NCBI RefSeq assembly: GCF_014931605.1
Contig: NZ_CP053382.1
Location: forward strand, 2,604,001 to 2,668,000
From: Halomonas sp. MCCC 1A13316
GTDB taxonomy: Bacteria; Pseudomonadota; Gammaproteobacteria; Pseudomonadales; Halomonadaceae
Direction: 5' to 3'
DNA length: 64,000 nucleotides
Position numbers and translations under genes: made by a program. This document shows positions 17,402 to 31,336 of the stretch, piece after piece. Below the pieces are notes generated by a model. It was not told the DNA's origin. It saw only the letters and a list, made by a program, of their open reading frames with translations, and did not search any database. The first letter of the stretch is position 1, and each line of letters starts with the position of its first letter.

Positions 17402-18094
17402 TCAGAAGCCGAGTTGATCGAGCAGATCGTCAACCTGGTCCTGGTTGGTTACGATATCGGCACCCGGCTTGATCTGGGGACCGTTGAGCAACCCCTCCTC
17501 CCGGCGACGGGCTTCAGTTTCCCACTGATCGTTGGCCTTGCGCTGCATGCTCTCGCGGGCCACTTCCTCGGGGACGTTGTCGATCAGCACCTGTACCAGT
17601 TGGTGCTCGATCTCACGGATCACATCCATCATCTTCTTGATCACCTGGCCGGTCAGGTCCTGGAAATCCTGGGCCATCATGATCTCGAGCAACTCTTTCT
17701 GCGTCGCCTGGGTCTTGTCGGGTACATCGGCCAGATAGGAGCGCGTCTCTTTGACCAGGTCGCGCGCCTCATCGAGCTCCTTGGGTTCGGCGAACCACTC
17801 GGCCCAGCGCTTGTCCAGCGACTCGGCGCCGTTGCTGATCGAATCCTGCAGCGGCTGAGCCCGGTCGATGGCGTTGAGGGCGCGCTCTGCGGCCTGCTCG
17901 GTCATGGTCGCCACGTAGCTCAATCGATCCCGCGCATCGGGAATCGCCTCGGCCGCCTTCTCGATCTCCTTGTCCAGACCCAGCTCGCGCATGCTCTCCC
18001 GCAGCATGCGGGTCAACTGTCCGATACGCTGGACAAGTTCCTCGCCGGCGGCGCCGGCCGCTTGAGCCTGGCCTGGCTGCTCGTTTGCGCTCAT
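17402..18094 (-). CDS. cheZ: chemotaxis protein phosphatase CheZ
   Basis: CheZ dephosphorylates CheY-P. The 230-residue, largely helical protein has the active-site stretch [17 protein letters not shown], with the catalytic Asp/Gln pair, and the C-terminal CheY-binding tail [12 protein letters not shown] that matches the enteric tail. I chose ATG 18094, preceded by AAGGAGA; the frame extends a further 13 codons without a better start. It follows cheY by 35 bases, the usual cheY-cheZ pairing. Confidence 0.96.
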
Positions 18095-18129
18095 GTTGTA
18101 ATCTCCTTCCGCAAGCGGGGCTGCCAGCG

Positions 18130-18519
18130 TCATTTGCCCAGCTTCTCGAAAATCTTGTTGAGCTTCTCTTCCAGCGTAGCGGCGGTGAACGGCTTCACTA
18201 CGTAGCCGCTGGCCCCGGCCTGGGCTGCTGCGATGATATTTTCCTTCTTTGCCTCGGCGGTCACCATCAATACCGGCAACTGCTTGAGCGCATCGTCGGC
18301 GCGGATCTGCTTGAGCATCTCCAGGCCGTCGAGGTTCGGCATGTTCCAGTCGGAAACCACGAACTCGAAGGAGCCGGAGCGCAGCTTGCTCAACGCTTCC
18401 TGGCCATCTTCGGCCTCCTCGACGTTGGTGTACCCCAGCTCCTTCAGCAGGCTCCGAACGATCCGGCGCATGGTCGGAAAGTCGTCGACCACCAGAAAGC
18501 TCATGTTCTTGTCAGCCAT
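18130..18519 (-). CDS. cheY: chemotaxis response regulator CheY
   Basis: CheY-P binds FliM at the motor switch and changes rotation. The 129-residue single receiver domain has all key residues: acidic pair in [12 protein letters not shown], phosphoacceptor Asp in [16 protein letters not shown], Thr in MVTAEA and Lys in [14 protein letters not shown]. It is close to the enteric protein in length and motif spacing. GAGGAATCACG precedes the ATG. It sits between an MCP gene and cheZ and would be phosphorylated by the CheA at 28961-31336. Confidence 0.97.
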
Positions 18520-20431: not shown

Positions 20432-21493
20432 TCAGACTCGCTGCGCACGTCCTGAAGCCGCCACCAGGGCCATCAGGCGCTCGGGTATATCGTCCAGGCT
20501 TGCCACTTCGGCGGCGCCTCCCAGTGCAATCGCCTCACGCGGCATGCCGAAGACCACGCAGCTTGCCTCGTCCTGAGCCAGCGTGGGCGAACCCGCCTGG
20601 CGCATTTCGAGCAACCCGGCGGCCCCATCCTTGCCCATTCCGGTGAGAATCACGCCGATGGCGTTGCGTCCGGCCTGGGTGGCAGCGGAATGAAACAGCA
20701 CATCCACCGAAGGACGGTGACGATTGACAGGCGGCCCGTCATCGAGCCTGGCCACGTAGTTCGCCCCGCTGCGTGCGAGCTTCAGATGCGCATCGCCGGG
20801 CGCGATGTAGGCATGGCCCGGCAAAACCCGCTCGCCATCGCTGGCTTCCTTCACCGTAATGTTGCACAGGCGGTTGAGCCGCTCGGCAAAGGAGCGGGTG
20901 AACCCGCCAGGCATGTGCTGGGTGATCAGGATGGCCGGGCTGTTGGCCGGCAGCGGCTCCAGCACGGCACGGATCGCTTCCGTCCCCCCCGTGGAGGCCC
21001 CGATGATGATCAGCTTCTCGCTCGATACCAGCGGTGCCTTGAGGGTTGCCCTGGGCGTCGCCTGAGCCTGACGCGCCTGGCGTGGGCGTGACTTGGCCGC
21101 GGCACGAATCTTCTCGGCAATGTCATTGGCATACTCGAGCATGCCATTACGGATACCCAATGAAGGCTTGGCGACGAAATCCAGCGCGCCCAACTCCAGC
21201 GCACGCAAAGTGATTTCCGAGCCGGCCTGGGTCAACGACGACACCATCAGCACCGGCATCGGCCGCAGGCGCATCAGCCGCTCGAGGAAATCGAGACCAT
21301 CCATACGCGGCATCTCGACGTCGAGTGTCAGGACGTCAGGGTTGTGTTGCTTGATCAGGTCGCGCGCCACCAATGGGTCTGGCGCCACGGCCACGACCTC
21401 CATGTCCGGCTGGGAGTTGATGATCTCGCTGAGCAGGTCACGAATCAGTGCCGAATCATCAACGCACAACACCTTGATCCTGTTAGATCCCAA
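20432..21493 (-). CDS. cheB: chemotaxis methylesterase CheB
   Basis: CheB removes methyl groups from (and deamidates) MCPs when phosphorylated. The 353-residue protein has an N-terminal receiver domain ([33 protein letters not shown]) and a C-terminal esterase domain with the Ser ([13 protein letters not shown]), His ([10 protein letters not shown]) and Asp ([13 protein letters not shown]). Translation begins at a TTG at 21493, with GGAG seven bases upstream; I see no better start because the receiver begins at once. It follows cheR, but a separate FliA promoter lies between them, so cheB-MCP-cheY-cheZ may form their own unit. Confidence 0.96.
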
Positions 21494-22490: not shown

Positions 22491-24683
22491 TCAAAATGTT
22501 TCCCACTCTTCATCGGCTGTCGCCTTGCTTGTTTTAACATGAGCACGCTTCACGGGAAGCGGGTCATGCGACAAGGCGGGGGTTGCTGAGCGTGACCGCC
22601 CTGTGTTTTCCGAGGTCTGCTCCTGCTCTCTCACAGCGGCGACAGGGACCTGCTCGAGTCCGGTGCCACGCAGCCGGAAGACACGAATTGCCCTGTCGAG
22701 AAGCTCCGCCTGACGCTGCAGATCGCCTGCCGCCCGTGCGCTCTGTTGCACGCGCTCGGCATTCTGCTGGGTCACCTGGTCCATCTCGGTGATGGCCTGG
22801 TTGATCTGGCCGATGCCGCTGCTCTGCTCCTCGGACGCTGCCGTGATCTCGCCCATGATGTCATTGACCCGCTGCGAGGCCGTCACCACCTCGGCCATCG
22901 CGCTCTCGGCGCGCTGTACCTGGCTGGCGCCCTCATGGATCTCGCTGGCCGAGCCGTCGATCAACTGGCGGATCTCCTTGGCGGCATCCGCGCTGCGTCC
23001 GGCCAGGTTGCGCACCTCACCGGCTACCACGGCGAAGCCACGCCCCTGCTCACCCGCCCGCGCCGCCTCCACCGAGGCGTTCAACGCCAGGATGTTGGTC
23101 TGGAAGGCGATCGAGTCGATCACGTTGATGATGTCCTTCATCTTCTCGGCGCCGGCCGTGATGCGCTGCATGGTCTGCACCACGCCATGCATCAGCTCGC
23201 CGGTGTCGCGTACGCGCCCGGCATTGTCCAGGGCCAGACCGCTGGCTTGCCGCGCATTGTCGGTGTTCTGCTGCACCGTGGTAGTCATCTCCTCCATGCT
23301 GGAGGCGGTCTCCTGCAGCGAGGCGGCCTGCTGCTCGGTGCGCGCCGAGAGGTCCTCGTTGCTACTGGCGATGGAACGCGATGCCGGGGTCACGACGTCG
23401 ATGCCTTGTTGAACGCTGCGAGTGGTGCTGTAGAGGCTCTTGCGCATGGTATTCAGCGCACCGAGCAGCACACCGATTTCGTCGCGCGCACGATCGGGGG
23501 AGCGTACCGCCAAGTTGCCCGCAGCGATCTGCAGGGTGAAATCAACGGCGCGGCGCACCGGGCGAGTAATCGCCCGCAGGGTCCAGAACCCCAGCAGGAT
23601 CAGGAACAGGATGCCGATCGTCAGTGCCGCAATTTGGCCCGTGAGCATTACGGCTTGGCCGCGCTCGGCCTCTTCGGCCAGTTGGTTGGCATAGTCGAGC
23701 TTGCCCTCGACCAGTACGTTGATGCTCTGGCTGATGGCATCGACTTCCGGGCGCAGCACATCGTTATAGGCTTCATAGGCGGCAAAGCCGCTGCCGTCTA
23801 TCAGCGCTTGCAGCGTGGGTCGGATGCCGTTGTCGACGGCGACGCCAAGCTGGGCATCGAGAGCAGTGACTTCTTCGCGGGCGGTATCCTCGCCGTCGAG
23901 GAAGCTTACCCAGGAGGCATCGATTCGCTCGACGACACCTTCGGATTGATCGGCCAGCTCTTGAATCTGCTCCAGACGCAACGCCCTGGGGTTGCGTACC
24001 GGACGCTCCAGGTCGGTCGTCAACTGGCTCAGCAACTGGTCGATACGCTGAAGATCGGCGATATCCTGCACGCCGTTGCCGTTGATTTGGGCTACGCGGT
24101 CACCCGATACCTTGAGGCCGTGGAGTCCCACGCCCCCGCTGAGCAGCAACAGCAATACCGGCACCAGGGTCAGGGCGATCAGCTTGGCGCGGATGGTATG
24201 AAGGTTGATCCGCGAGAGCGCACCCAGCAGTCCGCGCCGCACCAATTGGCCCTGCCTTACGGCCAGTTTCTGTCGCCCTTCACGAAGCTGGGCATAGGCG
24301 CGAGCTGCCGCTTCGGCGACAGCCGCATCGGGACGCGTGCGTACTGAGGTGTAGCCCTGGCACTTGTCCTCCTCGAGAATCGGCGTGACCGTCGCCTGTA
24401 CCCAGTAGTGGTCACCATCCTTGCGCCGGTTCTTGATCACCCCTTGCCAGGAAGCGCCCTTCTTTATCGTCTTCCACAGATCGTCGAAGGCCTCCTGCGG
24501 CATGTCGGGATGACGAATCAGGTTATGCGGAGCACCGATGAGCTCCTCATGGGAATAACCACTGACTTCGACGAACGCCGAATTGGCGTAGGTGATCCGC
24601 CCCTCCAGATCCGTGCGAGTGATAAGCAGGTGCTCATCGCTCAACTTGAATTCCCGCTGTGTCACCGGCTGATTGTCGCGCAT
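22491..24683 (-). CDS. Aer-like PAS methyl-accepting chemotaxis protein (copy A)
   Basis: A 730-residue receptor. Residues about 10-125 form a PAS domain of the Aer type ([21 protein letters not shown], then NLIRHPDMP), which in Aer binds FAD and senses redox or energy state. A transmembrane helix ([20 protein letters not shown]), a helical periplasmic region, a second helix ([19 protein letters not shown]), HAMP and the signalling domain follow. The C-terminus ends EEWETF, a CheR-docking pentapeptide. Unlike enteric Aer it has a sizeable periplasmic domain, so it may sense both cytoplasmic and external cues. ATG 24683 has AGGA upstream. Its signalling domain is nearly identical to copy B just upstream. 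Confidence 0.92.
22715..23452. repeat. MCP signalling-domain block, copy A of a 738-bp near-identical pair
   Basis: This stretch aligns without gaps to 24952-25689 at a constant offset of 2237 bases. The encoded proteins differ at about six positions over some 246 residues by eye, and the DNA mostly at third codon positions. Sequence on either side diverges quickly. Confidence 0.9.
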
Positions 24684-24733
24684 AATTATTATTCCTGTGC
24701 CGCTCTGGGTGAGTCCATCGGTACGACTTGCCT

Positions 24734-26920
24734 TCAGAAAGTCTCCCACTCTTCTTCCACGACGTGCTTGCTCGCTTTGGCAGGAGCCCGCTTGGCGGGG
24801 CGCGGATCGTGCTGCAACCCAAGCGCCATGGTCACTGGCTCCCTGCCGGCAGGCTGGTGCCCTTGCCCCTTTGGCTGGCTGGACACGATTTCGGGGCCAG
24901 CCCCGCGCAGGCGGTAGACACGAATGGCCTGGGCCAGTTGCTCTGCCTGGTGCTGCAGATCGCCTGCCGCCCGCGCGCTCTGTTGTACGCGCTCGGCATT
25001 TTGCTGGGTCACCTGATCCATCTCGGTGATGGCCTGGTTGATCTGGCCGATGCCGCTGCTCTGTTCCTCGGACGCCGCCGTGATCTCGCTCATGATGTCA
25101 TTGACCCGCTGCGAGGCCGTCACCACCTCGGCCATCGCACTCTCGGCGCGCTGCACCTGGCTGGCCCCCTCGTGAATCTCGCTGGCCGAGCCGTCGATCA
25201 ACTGGCGAATCTCCTTGGCGGCATCCGCGCTGCGTCCGGCCAGGTTGCGCACCTCACCGGCCACCACGGCGAAGCCACGCCCCTGCTCACCCGCCCGCGC
25301 CGCTTCCACCGAGGCGTTCAGCGCCAGGATGTTGGTCTGGAAGGCGATCGAGTCGATCACGTTGATGATGTCCTTCATCTTCTCGGCGCCGGCCGTGATG
25401 CGCTGCATGGTCTGCACCACGCCATGCATCAACTCGCCGGTATCGCGCACGCGGCCAGCGTTGTCCAGCGCCAGGCCGCTGGCTTGCCGCGCATTGTCGG
25501 TATTCTGCTGCACCGTGGTGGTCATCTCCTCCATGCTGGAGGCGGTCTCTTGCAGCGAGGCGGCCTGCTGCTCGGTGCGCGCCGAGAGGTCCTCATTGCC
25601 ACGAGCGATGGAACGCGATGCCGGGGTCACGACGTCGATGCCCTGCTGCACACGCTCGGTAGTGCTGTAGAGACTCTTGCGCATGGTATCGAGCGAGCCG
25701 AGCAGCGCGCCGATCTCGTCGCGCGTCTGCTTCGGCGTCGCCACCGCCAGGTTGCCCGAGGCGATCTGCAAGGTGAAATCGGACGCGCGGCGTACCGGCC
25801 GGGTAATCGCCCGCATGATCCACAAACTTATGACCAGCAGCAGCACGAAGCCGAGCGCCATGAAACCCAGTTGTCCCATCAGCATCTGCTGTTGCCCCTG
25901 CTCGGCCTCTTCCGCCATGCCCAGCGCCGCCAGGCGCTGCTGCTCGATCAGTTGGTTCACCTGGGTGATCAGGGCATCCGCGCTTTCACGCAGCGACGCC
26001 GTCTGGTTGTTCAGCGCCATCATGGCATCGAAGGCTTCTTCTCCTCCCAACGCCTCGGCCATGGGGGCCAAGCCATCGGTCAGGAAGCTCGTCAAAGAAG
26101 CATCGAACTCGAGCGCCATCGGCGTACGGTTGACTTCGCGATCCAGGTAGTCGCCCCACAGCCCGGTAAGCTGCCCGGCGATACGGGAAAGTCCCTCGGC
26201 TCGCTGGTGCCGCTCGCCCAGGATATCCATGCGCTGCTCGGCGCTGAGCCCCTGCGGTCCCTCATTGACCAATTGGCCGAGCTGTTGCAGGCGTATGACG
26301 TCCTGCAAGCCGTCACGGTTCAGCTCCGCCAGACGCTGCCCCGATGCCTCCAGACCATAGAGCCCCACGCCGCCACTGATCGCGAGCAGCAACAGTGCCG
26401 AAAAGGTGAGCATGGAGAGGCGAGCGCGGATGGAGTGCAGGTTGATACGCGCCAGCCAGCCCAGTGGACCCCGGCGCACCAGTCTGCCTTTACGAATGGC
26501 GAGGCCGGAACGTCCGGCGCGAATCCTCGCATAGGCACGTTCAGCGGCTTCTGAAGTGCCAGCTTCGACGACTGTACGGACCGAGGTATAGCCGAGACAC
26601 TTGCCTTCCTCGACAATCGGCGTGACCGTAGCCCGCACCCAGTAGTGGTCGCCATTCTTGCGCCGATTCTTGACCAACCCCTGCCAGGATCCGCCTTTCT
26701 TGACCACATCCCACAGATCGGCAAAGGCCTCCACCGGCATGTCGGGGTGACGAATGATGTTATGGTTCGCCCCGATGAGTTCGTCATGCTCGAAGCCGCT
26801 GACCTCGACGAAGGCAGCGTTGGCATAGGTAATCCGGCCATCAAGGTCGGTACGGGTGATCAGAAGCTGCTGATCGCCCAGCTGGTATTCCCGTTGCGTG
26901 ACTGGCTGATTGTTGCGCAT
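24734..26920 (-). CDS. Aer-like PAS methyl-accepting chemotaxis protein (copy B)
   Basis: A 728-residue paralogue of copy A with the same architecture: Aer-type PAS ([27 protein letters not shown]), transmembrane helix, periplasmic helical region, second helix ([19 protein letters not shown]), HAMP, signalling domain and C-terminal EEWETF. The PAS domains are clearly similar, but the periplasmic regions (about 200-380) share little, so the two probably respond to different external signals. The signalling domain is almost identical to copy A, probably through gene conversion. ATG 26920 gives the same [11 protein letters not shown] start as copy A. No FliA site is visible directly upstream; it probably reads through from the cheAW or MCP promoters. 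Confidence 0.92.
24952..25689. repeat. MCP signalling-domain block, copy B of a 738-bp near-identical pair
   Basis: Partner of 22715-23452 in direct orientation, with no insertion or deletion between them. Its ends fall inside the coding sequences, near the start of the signalling helices and just before the variable C-terminal linker. Confidence 0.9.
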
Positions 26921-28463: not shown

Positions 28464-28958
28464 TCACTCAGCCACGCGTTCGACCAGTTCCATCTCGTCG
28501 CTGGTCAGCAGCTTGTCGATATCGACGATCACCAGCATGCGATCCTCGAGGCTACCCAGCCCGCTGAGGAAGTCCGACGAGAGGGTCACGCCGAATTCAG
28601 GTGCCGGCTTGATCTGGTCGGGCGAGAGCGTCATCACGTCGGACACGCCATCGACGACGATACCGACGACCCTGTCCTCGACGTTGACCACGATGACCAC
28701 GGTCTGGCCGCCGTACTCCACCTTGTCGAGGTGGAACTTGATGCGCAGGTCGACGATGGGCACGATGACCCCGCGCAGGTTGGTCACGCCCTTGATGAAG
28801 TCCGGCGCGTTGGCGATGCGCGTGACGTTCTCGTAGCCCCGAATTTCCTGCACCTTGAGGATGTCGACGGCATACTCTTCGTCACCCAGCGAGAACACCA
28901 GGAATTCACGGTTGTGGGCTTCGGCTGCGGCCAATGTTGCATCTTTCAATTGGTTCAT
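28464..28958 (-). CDS. cheW: chemotaxis coupling protein CheW
   Basis: CheW links MCPs to CheA in the receptor array. The 164-residue product is one CheW-like SH3 fold with [53 protein letters not shown], close to the enteric protein in sequence and length. GGAG precedes the ATG by eight bases, and the start lies 2 bases after the cheA stop, so the two are surely co-transcribed. Confidence 0.97.
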
Positions 28959-28960
28959 GA

Positions 28961-31336
28961 TCAGGTCTCCAGCGCTTTGTCGGTAAGAGCTTCGAGTGAT
29001 TGCAGTTCGCGTTCGGGCCGGCGCTTTTCTTTCTTGGCACGGCTGAGGCGATGCAGGCCGGTAATATCGAGGATCAGCGCCACGCTGCCATCCCCGAGGA
29101 TGGTCGCGGCCGATACTCCCGGCACCTTGCGGTAGTTCGTTTCCAGGTTCTTGACCACTACCTGCTGCTGACCGACCAGGTCGTCCACCAGCAGGGCATA
29201 GCGACGCCCCTCACCCTGCACGATCACGGCGATGGTTTCGGTGAGCTTGGTCTTGGCGTTGGGTACGTCCAGCGCCTCGTGCACCGCCACGACCGGCAGG
29301 TACTCGTCACGGACCTTGAGCACCACGTCGTCACCGGCCATGGCGTACAGGTCCTCCTTGGCCGGCTGCAGCGACTCGAGTACGGCGGATAGCGGCAGGA
29401 TGAACATCTCGTTGCCGACCTTGATCGACATGCCGTCCAGTATCGCCAGCGTCAGCGGCAGCACGATGCGAATAGTGGTGCCTTCGCCTGGCTGGGACAT
29501 GATCAACACATGCCCGCCCATGCCCTGTATGTTGCGTTTGACCACATCCATACCGACACCGCGACCGGAGACGTCGGTCACTTCCTTGGCGGTAGAGAAG
29601 CCCGGGGCGAAGATGAGCTGCCACACCTCGTCGTCGCTCATGGTGTCGGAAACGGGCAAGCCGTTCTCGCGCGCCTTGGCCAGTAGCCTGTCGCGGTTGA
29701 GACCGGCACCATCGTCAATCACTTCGATGACGATGTTGCCGCCCTGATGTTTGGCCGAAAGTACCAGCTTGCCGGTACGCGGCTTGCCTGCCGCCTCGCG
29801 CACGTCGGGCGGTTCGATGCCATGGTCGAGGCTGTTGCGCACCAGGTGCGTCAGCGGGTCGATGATGCGCTCGGTCAGGCTCTTGTCGAGCTCGGTGGAT
29901 TCGCCTTCGGTGACCAGCTCGATCTCCTTGCCCAGCTTGCCGGCGGTCTCACGCACGACCCGGGGAAAGCGGCTGAAGACGAAATCCATCGGGATCATGC
30001 GGATCGACATTACCGATTCCTGCAGGTCCCGGGCATTACGCTGCAGCAGGCTCATTCCATTGAGCAGCGCGCTGTCGGCGACTCCCTCCATTTCGCTGAC
30101 GGTCTGGTCGAGCATCGACTGGGTGATAATCAGTTCGCCAACGAGGTTGATGATCTGGTCGACCTTGTCGACGGAAACACGAATGGAAGAACTCTCGGGC
30201 CCTTTTGCCTTGGCCTTGCCGCGGGCAGGCTTCGAAGCGTCATCGTTTGTCGCTTTCGGGGTCGGCCGACTTACTGGTTTATCGGCAGGCTTGGGAGTGT
30301 CAGTCGCCTTGACGGCATCCACCGATGCCGGCGTTGCGGCTGTTTTCTCCGCACTTGCCGCTTCACTGGCGGCACCGGCGGGGCTGATGTGCAGCTGTTC
30401 GGCATCGATGATGAAGCCCATCACCGCCTCGATATCGTCATTGCTGACAGAGGAAGCCAGGACGACCTCGTAGCAGGCTTCGTCACCCTGCTGTGAAACC
30501 ACCTCGCCCAGTTGGCCCAGTTCCTCGACGAGAAGCTGGCGATCCTTCTCTCCCACATTCAAGAGTGTGACGACTCGCTCCCCTTCACCGGCGACGAGAG
30601 GCGTGTCGGCTGTCTCCTCGGACTGGCCGGAGGCGGCAGGTCTGATCTGAAACTGATCGCCATCGATGATGAAGCACATCACGGCTTCGATATCGTCATC
30701 GCTATCGCTGGAGACGAGCACGACTTCGTAGCGCTGCTCGTCGCCCTGGTGTGAGACCACTTCTCCCAACTGCCCCAGTTCCTCCACCAGCAACTGGCGA
30801 TCTTTCTCGCCCACGTTCAGCAGCGTCACGATACGCTGCTCGCCATCGGCAGGCTTAGCCTCTTCAGGCTGTTTGTCCGGGGCGGCCTCGGCGACTGGCT
30901 CGGCCTTCGGTGGCGGTGTCGCTGAGGCACCGCCATCCAGATCCTGACCGATTTCCTCCAGCGCCAGCCGCTGCAACGTCTCGCAGATACGCTCGAAGGC
31001 CTCTTGATCGGGCTCGTCGCTATTGCGGTAGGCATTTAGCTGATCACTGAGCATGTCCTTGGTTTCCAGAAAGATATCGACGATATCCCGGCGCAGCTTG
31101 AGCTCGCCCTTGCGGGTATGGTCGAGCAGGTTTTCGAACAGGTGAGTGGTTCTCTGAAGCACGTCGAAACCGAACGTGCCGGCACCGCCCTTGATCGAAT
31201 GGGCCGCACGAAAGATGGCATTGAGCTGTTCGGTATCCGGCTCGTCCACGTCGAGCTCAAGCAGGTAGCGCTCCATGTCGGCCAGCAGCTCTTCGGCTTC
31301 CTCGAAGAAAGTGTCATAGAAATCCGTGATATCCAT
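28961..31336 (-). CDS. cheA: chemotaxis histidine kinase CheA with duplicated P2 domain
   Basis: CheA phosphorylates CheY and CheB in response to receptors. The 791-residue protein has P1 with the phospho-His ([14 protein letters not shown], His 46), a linker, two consecutive P2 domains (about 167-234 and 253-320), a Pro/Ala/Lys linker, P3 dimerisation (about 385-450), P4 ATPase ([28 protein letters not shown]) and P5 CheW-like. Enteric CheA is about 654 residues with one P2; the extra copy and longer linkers explain the size. P2 docks CheY and CheB. I chose ATG 31336, which matches the enteric MDISDFY start; a GTG lies three codons upstream. Confidence 0.96.
30377..30580. repeat. CheA P2 domain, second copy
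   Basis: Encodes 68 residues from [20 protein letters not shown] to HISPA. By eye it is identical to the first copy at 54 of 68 residues. It has the P2 signature [15 protein letters not shown], like DDITAVLCFVIEADQ in enteric CheA. Confidence 0.88.
30635..30838. repeat. CheA P2 domain, first copy
   Basis: Encodes 68 residues from [20 protein letters not shown] to QIRPA, 86 residues before the second copy. The spacer between copies is about 18 residues of acidic linker. Confidence 0.88.

Follow-up and report, generated by a model that had tools for sequence, protein, structure and literature searches.

The window, a stretch of 64,000 nucleotides from Halomonas sp. MCCC 1A13316, carries a chemotaxis cluster in which cheA is accompanied by cheW, cheR, cheB, cheY, cheZ and several receptor genes. 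The cheA reading frame is unbroken over 791 amino acids in translation, and a profile search of its product finds PF01627, PF02895, PF02518 and PF01584, all above cut-off and in the order of a CheA histidine kinase. The protein is an ordinary enteric-type chemotaxis CheA plus a tandem P2 between the phosphotransfer and dimerisation domains. The features relevant here are:

28961..31336, minus strand: CheA, 791 aa (Hpt, P2, P2, dimerisation, ATPase and CheW-like domains)
31046..31321, minus strand: Hpt (P1) domain, residues 6-97 (PF01627)
30632..30835, minus strand: P2 copy 1 (proximal), residues 168-235, which keeps Cys221 (PF09078, 77.9 bits)
30674..30676, minus strand: TGC codon of Cys221 in copy 1, aligned with E. 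coli C213
30578..30631, minus strand: linker between the P2 copies, predicted disordered (pLDDT < 50 at model residues 72-86)
30374..30577, minus strand: P2 copy 2 (distal), residues 254-321, in which Gly307 replaces the Cys (PF09078, 73.4 bits)
30416..30418, minus strand: GGC codon of Gly307 in copy 2, at the position equivalent to Cys221
28961..30193, minus strand: P3-P5, with dimerisation (382-445, PF02895), ATPase (493-629, PF02518) and CheW-like (635-761, PF01584) domains
30146..30945, minus strand: putative mosaic block that begins in the P1-P2 linker and ends where P3 starts, edges approximate (site counts and trees)
28464..28958, minus strand: CheW (PF01584)
20432..21493, minus strand: CheB, putative P2 client, sole match in the genome at E 1e-40
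18130..18519, minus strand: CheY, putative P2 client, sole match in the genome at E 1e-25
17402..18133, minus strand: CheZ (PF04344)

Two adjacent PAS-HAMP receptor genes (22491-24749 and 24734-26920, minus strand) overlap slightly. DNA identity is 91% across 924 aligned bases in the signalling half and 78% across 338 at the start, and the part between hardly aligns; this pattern suggests a tandem duplication followed by conversion.

P2 copies 1 and 2 share 54 of 68 residues, and copy 2 starts 86 residues past the start of copy 1. The earlier note, which had proposed the duplication, arrived at the same 54/68 with blocks lying one codon upstream; compared with residues 168-235 and 254-321, its limits drop an A/G mismatch and gain a Q/E one. 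The short acidic linker that it described between the copies is confirmed. Forty codons differ between the copies, 26 of them synonymously. PF09078, the profile suggested for checking the region, matches each copy searched alone far above chance (the scores listed above, against a cut-off of 24 bits) and the whole CheA at 133.6 bits in two stretches.

An assembly duplication of P2 is out: the copies are 24% different in DNA, the window genome, a single contig, has a single CheA match, and other assemblies carry both copies. The duplication is judged old, not an assembly error, because the copies match at only 155 of 204 bases. The dS between them is 1.28 in the window, and it ranges from 0.54 to 1.48 in six of seven Billgrantia-type proteins, being not computable for G017.

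AlphaFold, supplied with an alignment of 11 two-P2 proteins, modelled the tandem region as two P2-like domains with the same strand-helix order (P2 topology) and a disordered linker, at a mean pLDDT of 79.8 and a pTM of 0.43; because of the latter value the relative placement of the two domains is not predicted. With the tandem model as a single query against the PDB, the three best E-values belong to engineered ferredoxin-fold proteins, which align across both domains at once with rmsd > 10 Å. The E. coli P2 with CheY (1a0o_B) ranks fourth and fits one copy, which is all that its alignment covers (TMt 0.84, rmsd 1.8); other P2 matches are 1ffg, 1ffs and 1fwp.

Relatives were surveyed in genus, family, order and phylum samples, which overlap. 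Of the 90 genomes in the genus sample, 55 match PF09078 and 10 of those 55 have two P2s; comparison of the lists by eye shows that these 55 are also the ones whose CheA match reaches E 1e-100. The remaining 35, some of them incomplete, lack both the CheA match (E 1e-100) and the P2 match, as do 29 of the 81 good genomes of that sample. PF09078 is matched in 163 of 201 genomes of the family sample (32 from the window's genus, 131 from other genera), and two matches occur in one of those 131 (G179). The order sample gives 30 of 390 genomes, with two P2s in the window genome only, and the phylum sample 34 of 398, with two P2s in the window genome and G941. Among 119 distinct CheAs, a non-random set chosen by similarity to the window CheA and by P2 matches, two P2s occur in 12 and a single P2 in 107. 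Among the two-P2 relatives are L032-L035, L037, L040, L006, L026 and L113 (Billgrantia/Halomonas) and L063 (Kushneria aurantia). Two copies are therefore shared by some relatives; the closest ones have both and many others one. Profile, fold and relatives together bear out the tandem duplication that the earlier note had read from the letters.

E. coli residue numbers were mapped onto the window copies through 6s1k. Besides F214, we take the contact residues of the E. coli P2 to be E171, E178, H181, D202, D207 and C213. In 11 of the 12 two-P2 proteins (L160 was left out) neither copy varies at the equivalents of E177, E178, D207 and F214, while the C213 position is invariant in copy 1 only. 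The anchor Phe, at F214, is present in both window copies and in copy 2 of 11/11 aligned proteins; its naming as anchor follows a title cited in PMC5364535 and a list of mutants there. The copies had been said to differ most around the docking face. This stands for C/G, at E. coli C213 adjoining F214, and for G/A, at A218, whose NMR signal shifts upon CheY binding in the accessible text of PMC5705603; D/E, F/L and Q/H (E. coli 219, 221 and 222) are not placed at the face, and nine more differences had gone unnamed.

The Cys before the anchor Phe, present in window copy 1 and replaced by Gly in copy 2, is a conserved feature and not a formal requirement of the family. All 107 single P2s have it (105 recognised by pattern, 2 by eye); among the 12 proximal copies 11 have it, and that of G941 has Ser (by eye). 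Of the 12 distal copies six have Gly, five Cys and one Ser; the Billgrantia type accounts for seven distal copies, of which four retain the Cys. All six Gly residues are encoded by GGC, and the proximal copies of the same proteins have TGC. Counted by sequence, the contrast between distal Gly in 6/12 and in 0/119 (107 single plus 12 proximal) has p 1.5e-7, a value that overstates it because two or three events are involved, not six. The sequences imply at least two Cys-to-Gly changes in distal copies.

The copies also appear to differ in constraint. Among the seven Billgrantia-type proteins dN/dS is 0.058 for copy 1 and 0.159 for copy 2 (21 pairs each), and in the H. organivorans set it is 0.36 for the proximal and 0.64 for the distal copy (three pairs each), rates that are rough because the inter-copy dS is 1.28 in the window and not computable for G017. 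In six Billgrantia-type proteins, B. montanilacus being set aside, 15 of the 70 columns of copy 1 vary and 23 of the 70 of copy 2; change at third positions is similar (38 and 40). These figures support a distal copy that is less constrained than the proximal one. Both copies are intact P2 domains that evolve under purifying selection, and several species keep them.

The putative clients were sought in 21 genomes, ten with two P2s and 11 with one, at thresholds of E 1e-25 for CheY and E 1e-40 for CheB. Each of the 21 has one CheY and one CheB, so that at these thresholds no extra CheY or CheB accompanies the extra P2. CheY is 91-100% identical to that of the window across the set; it is 100% identical in the window, G073 and G009, and 99% in the single-P2 G008.

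The history of the duplication was followed on two trees. The CheA core tree (119 rows) was made by a quick method and carries a long-branch warning for L063 and L160; on it the two-P2 label requires six changes, losses included, of which four are forced by well-supported branches. Nested inside the Halomonas CheAs of this tree are Chromatiaceae cores (Halochromatium, Lamprobacter) and one gammaproteobacterial bin (L079, L081, L088, L089 and L094), a placement that suggests gene transfer or mislabelled or contaminated contigs. Two Caballeronia (Burkholderiaceae) CheAs, L072 and L073, are also among the relatives and have a single P2 of PF09078 type.

The P2 tree was built from 41 DNA rows, with a bootstrap that had yet to settle. 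It unites the copy 1 rows of all seven Billgrantia-type proteins (94/96, not starred) and, in another group, the copy 2 rows from six of the seven (97/94, starred); the copy 2 of B. montanilacus lies beside copy 1 rows, with DQ26W. A distinct starred set (97/99) unites the copies of H. organivorans, H. getboli and G036 with the single-P2 G010, and within it the two H. organivorans copies pair as sisters (97/90). Because their P2 copies fall in separate sets, the Billgrantia type and the organivorans type were duplicated independently, so the two-P2 CheAs trace to at least two independent duplications. The Kushneria aurantia copies are 56% identical to each other and 26-37% to other two-P2 copies; this protein and G941, from another family, look like further duplications. 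The P2 starts lie 86-88 residues apart in the Billgrantia set, 80-81 apart in the H. organivorans set and 76 apart in K. aurantia.

Several simpler histories were put to constraint tests, whose p values are generous, the groups having been chosen after viewing the core tree and the later ones also the P2 tree. For the organivorans-type set, a clade of all copy 1 rows and a clade of all copy 2 rows were each rejected (p 0.017 and 0.021), so this set stems either from two duplications or from one with later conversion. An own duplication in the window group was likewise rejected, its six copies fitting worse when constrained together (AU p 0.015), as were a single clade of the window-group copies with the P2s of six single-P2 backbone kin (p 8e-7) and an ancestral two-P2 state with simple loss, in which the P2s of the neighbours are orthologues of copy 1 or copy 2 (p 0.0001 and 0.0003).

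On the core tree the window is nearest to the two-P2 B. bachuensis and G073, then to the single-P2 B. lactosivorans. Identity to B. lactosivorans is 92% in P1 and core and 74-75% in the P2s, while identity to the two-P2 H. alkalisoli is 85% in the core, 90% in copy 1 and 82% in copy 2. Sites of P1 and core side with B. lactosivorans over H. alkalisoli by 136 to 40, and those of the two P2s by 20 to 65 (Fisher p 1.1e-16); all 12 pairings of four single-P2 with three two-P2 relatives shift alike, the weakest at p 2.8e-3. The left switch point falls somewhere between residues 122 and 142, and the right one near residue 397. Some counts go against a mosaic: copy 2 with B. montanilacus leans neither way for two of the four single-P2 relatives (24:23, 22:22), P1 leans neither way with B. 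kenyensis (19:24, 23:24, 22:23), and there are stray bins of 2:5 within P1 and 12:11 in the P2-P3 linker. With flanks that resemble single-P2 neighbours and a block that resembles the other two-P2 lineage, the pattern is best explained by homologous recombination that passed the two-P2 block between lineages. A hint of the direction of transfer is that the P2 tree places the window group, with weak support, among the copies of the other group.

The block also looks as if it can contract. Halomonas sp. DQ26W has one P2 and is nested among two-P2 proteins on the core tree. At the ten sites that tell the two copies apart in that group, the DQ26W P2 shows the pattern 1111122122 and B. montanilacus copy 2 the pattern 2211112222; these few sites fit a hybrid left by repeat contraction in the former and a partial gene conversion in the latter.

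The reading that we favour, with restrained confidence, is that copy 1 is the main dock for CheY and CheB and copy 2 an extra site. Two P2s per CheA would give four docking sites per CheA dimer. Copy 1, which adjoins the phosphotransfer domain and is the more constrained, would be the main site; copy 2, with its anchor Phe and acidic residues kept and its docking face altered, would probably bind more weakly or exchange faster, and may add to the CheY and CheB held at the array. Two docking sites could plausibly raise the local CheY/CheB concentration, as the earlier note suggested; a higher local phospho-CheY has been proposed for Borrelia CheA2 (accessible text of PMC10703414). The patchy distribution, the DQ26W hybrid and the unchanged number of CheY and CheB also fit, however, with a second P2 that arose by slippage or unequal recombination in the flexible linker and drifts without benefit of its own. 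This possibility is the less probable of the two but deserves attention: only 10 of the 55 P2-bearing genus genomes have the repeat, a hybrid-looking single P2 occurs among two-P2 proteins, copy 2 is less constrained and loses the docking Cys, and the distal dN/dS of 0.64 favours drift in the H. organivorans set. Against it, copy 2 of the Billgrantia type is still under purifying selection (dN/dS about 0.16), is in frame and predicted folded despite the long divergence of the copies, and has never lost the anchor Phe in the aligned proteins.

An improbable alternative, also raised in the earlier note, is a division of labour in which CheY docks on one copy and CheB on the other. CheB competes with CheY for the single P2 site of E. 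coli (accessible text of PMC3203854), where P2 binds CheY with a Kd of about 0.5 µM (PMC5705603, in part), and the copies differ at the C213 and A218 positions; yet one-P2 and two-P2 genomes alike have one CheY and one CheB, and CheY changes little between them. Less probable still is an effect of length, by which the extra block lengthens the tether from P1 to the kinase core and alters the geometry of phosphotransfer. The 86-residue offset and the importance of the P1-P2 linker for CheY handling in E. coli (PMC5705603, same part) speak for it, but a folded P2 with conserved docking residues is superfluous for mere length, and the linkers of single-P2 relatives vary in length and sequence. 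An extension of the favoured extra-site reading, more ambitious and doubtful, is that the distal P2 is repeatedly retuned by the one-base Cys-to-Gly change, which would set a tight and a loose or partner-selective site in series as a two-affinity CheY/CheB buffer carried on a recombining cassette.

The worth of P2 is itself debatable, because about half of CheAs do without it and in E. coli it is not essential to phosphotransfer, which is slower without it (accessible text of PMC10782961). One-P2, two-P2 and hybrid-P2 relatives with nearly unchanged CheY nevertheless form a natural series on the effect of an extra docking site, and the distal loss of an otherwise conserved Cys is a single testable residue. 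Literature searches found no paper on the C213 position of P2 and none joining Halomonas, CheA and CheY-binding; neither block exchange between lineages nor recurrent distal Cys loss was found in the accessible parts of the literature on P2 duplication.

The E. coli P2 (PF09078; 1A0O, 1EAY, 1FFG) shares with the window copies the profile, the fold and the equivalents of E178, D207 and F214, but E. coli CheA has one P2, with Cys213, whereas the window CheA has two, the distal one with Gly there. By far most CheAs carry a single copy, and the Borreliales share a P2 duplication, the spread of other cases suggesting several independent events (Berry et al. 2023, PMC10782961, accessible text). Since these events are published, the window CheA is a further, well-resolved case of a known type of duplication. 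Its Billgrantia/Halomonas relatives and Kushneria aurantia have the same architecture, with different spacing and at least two origins. Borrelia burgdorferi CheA2 and other Borreliales CheAs likewise have two tandem P2s between P1 and P3 (PMC10703414 and PMC10782961, both in part); the Borrelia copies are 26% identical, against 79% for the window copies, and were aligned by their authors with the T. maritima P2 (PMC10703414), whereas the window P2s match the E. coli-type PF09078.
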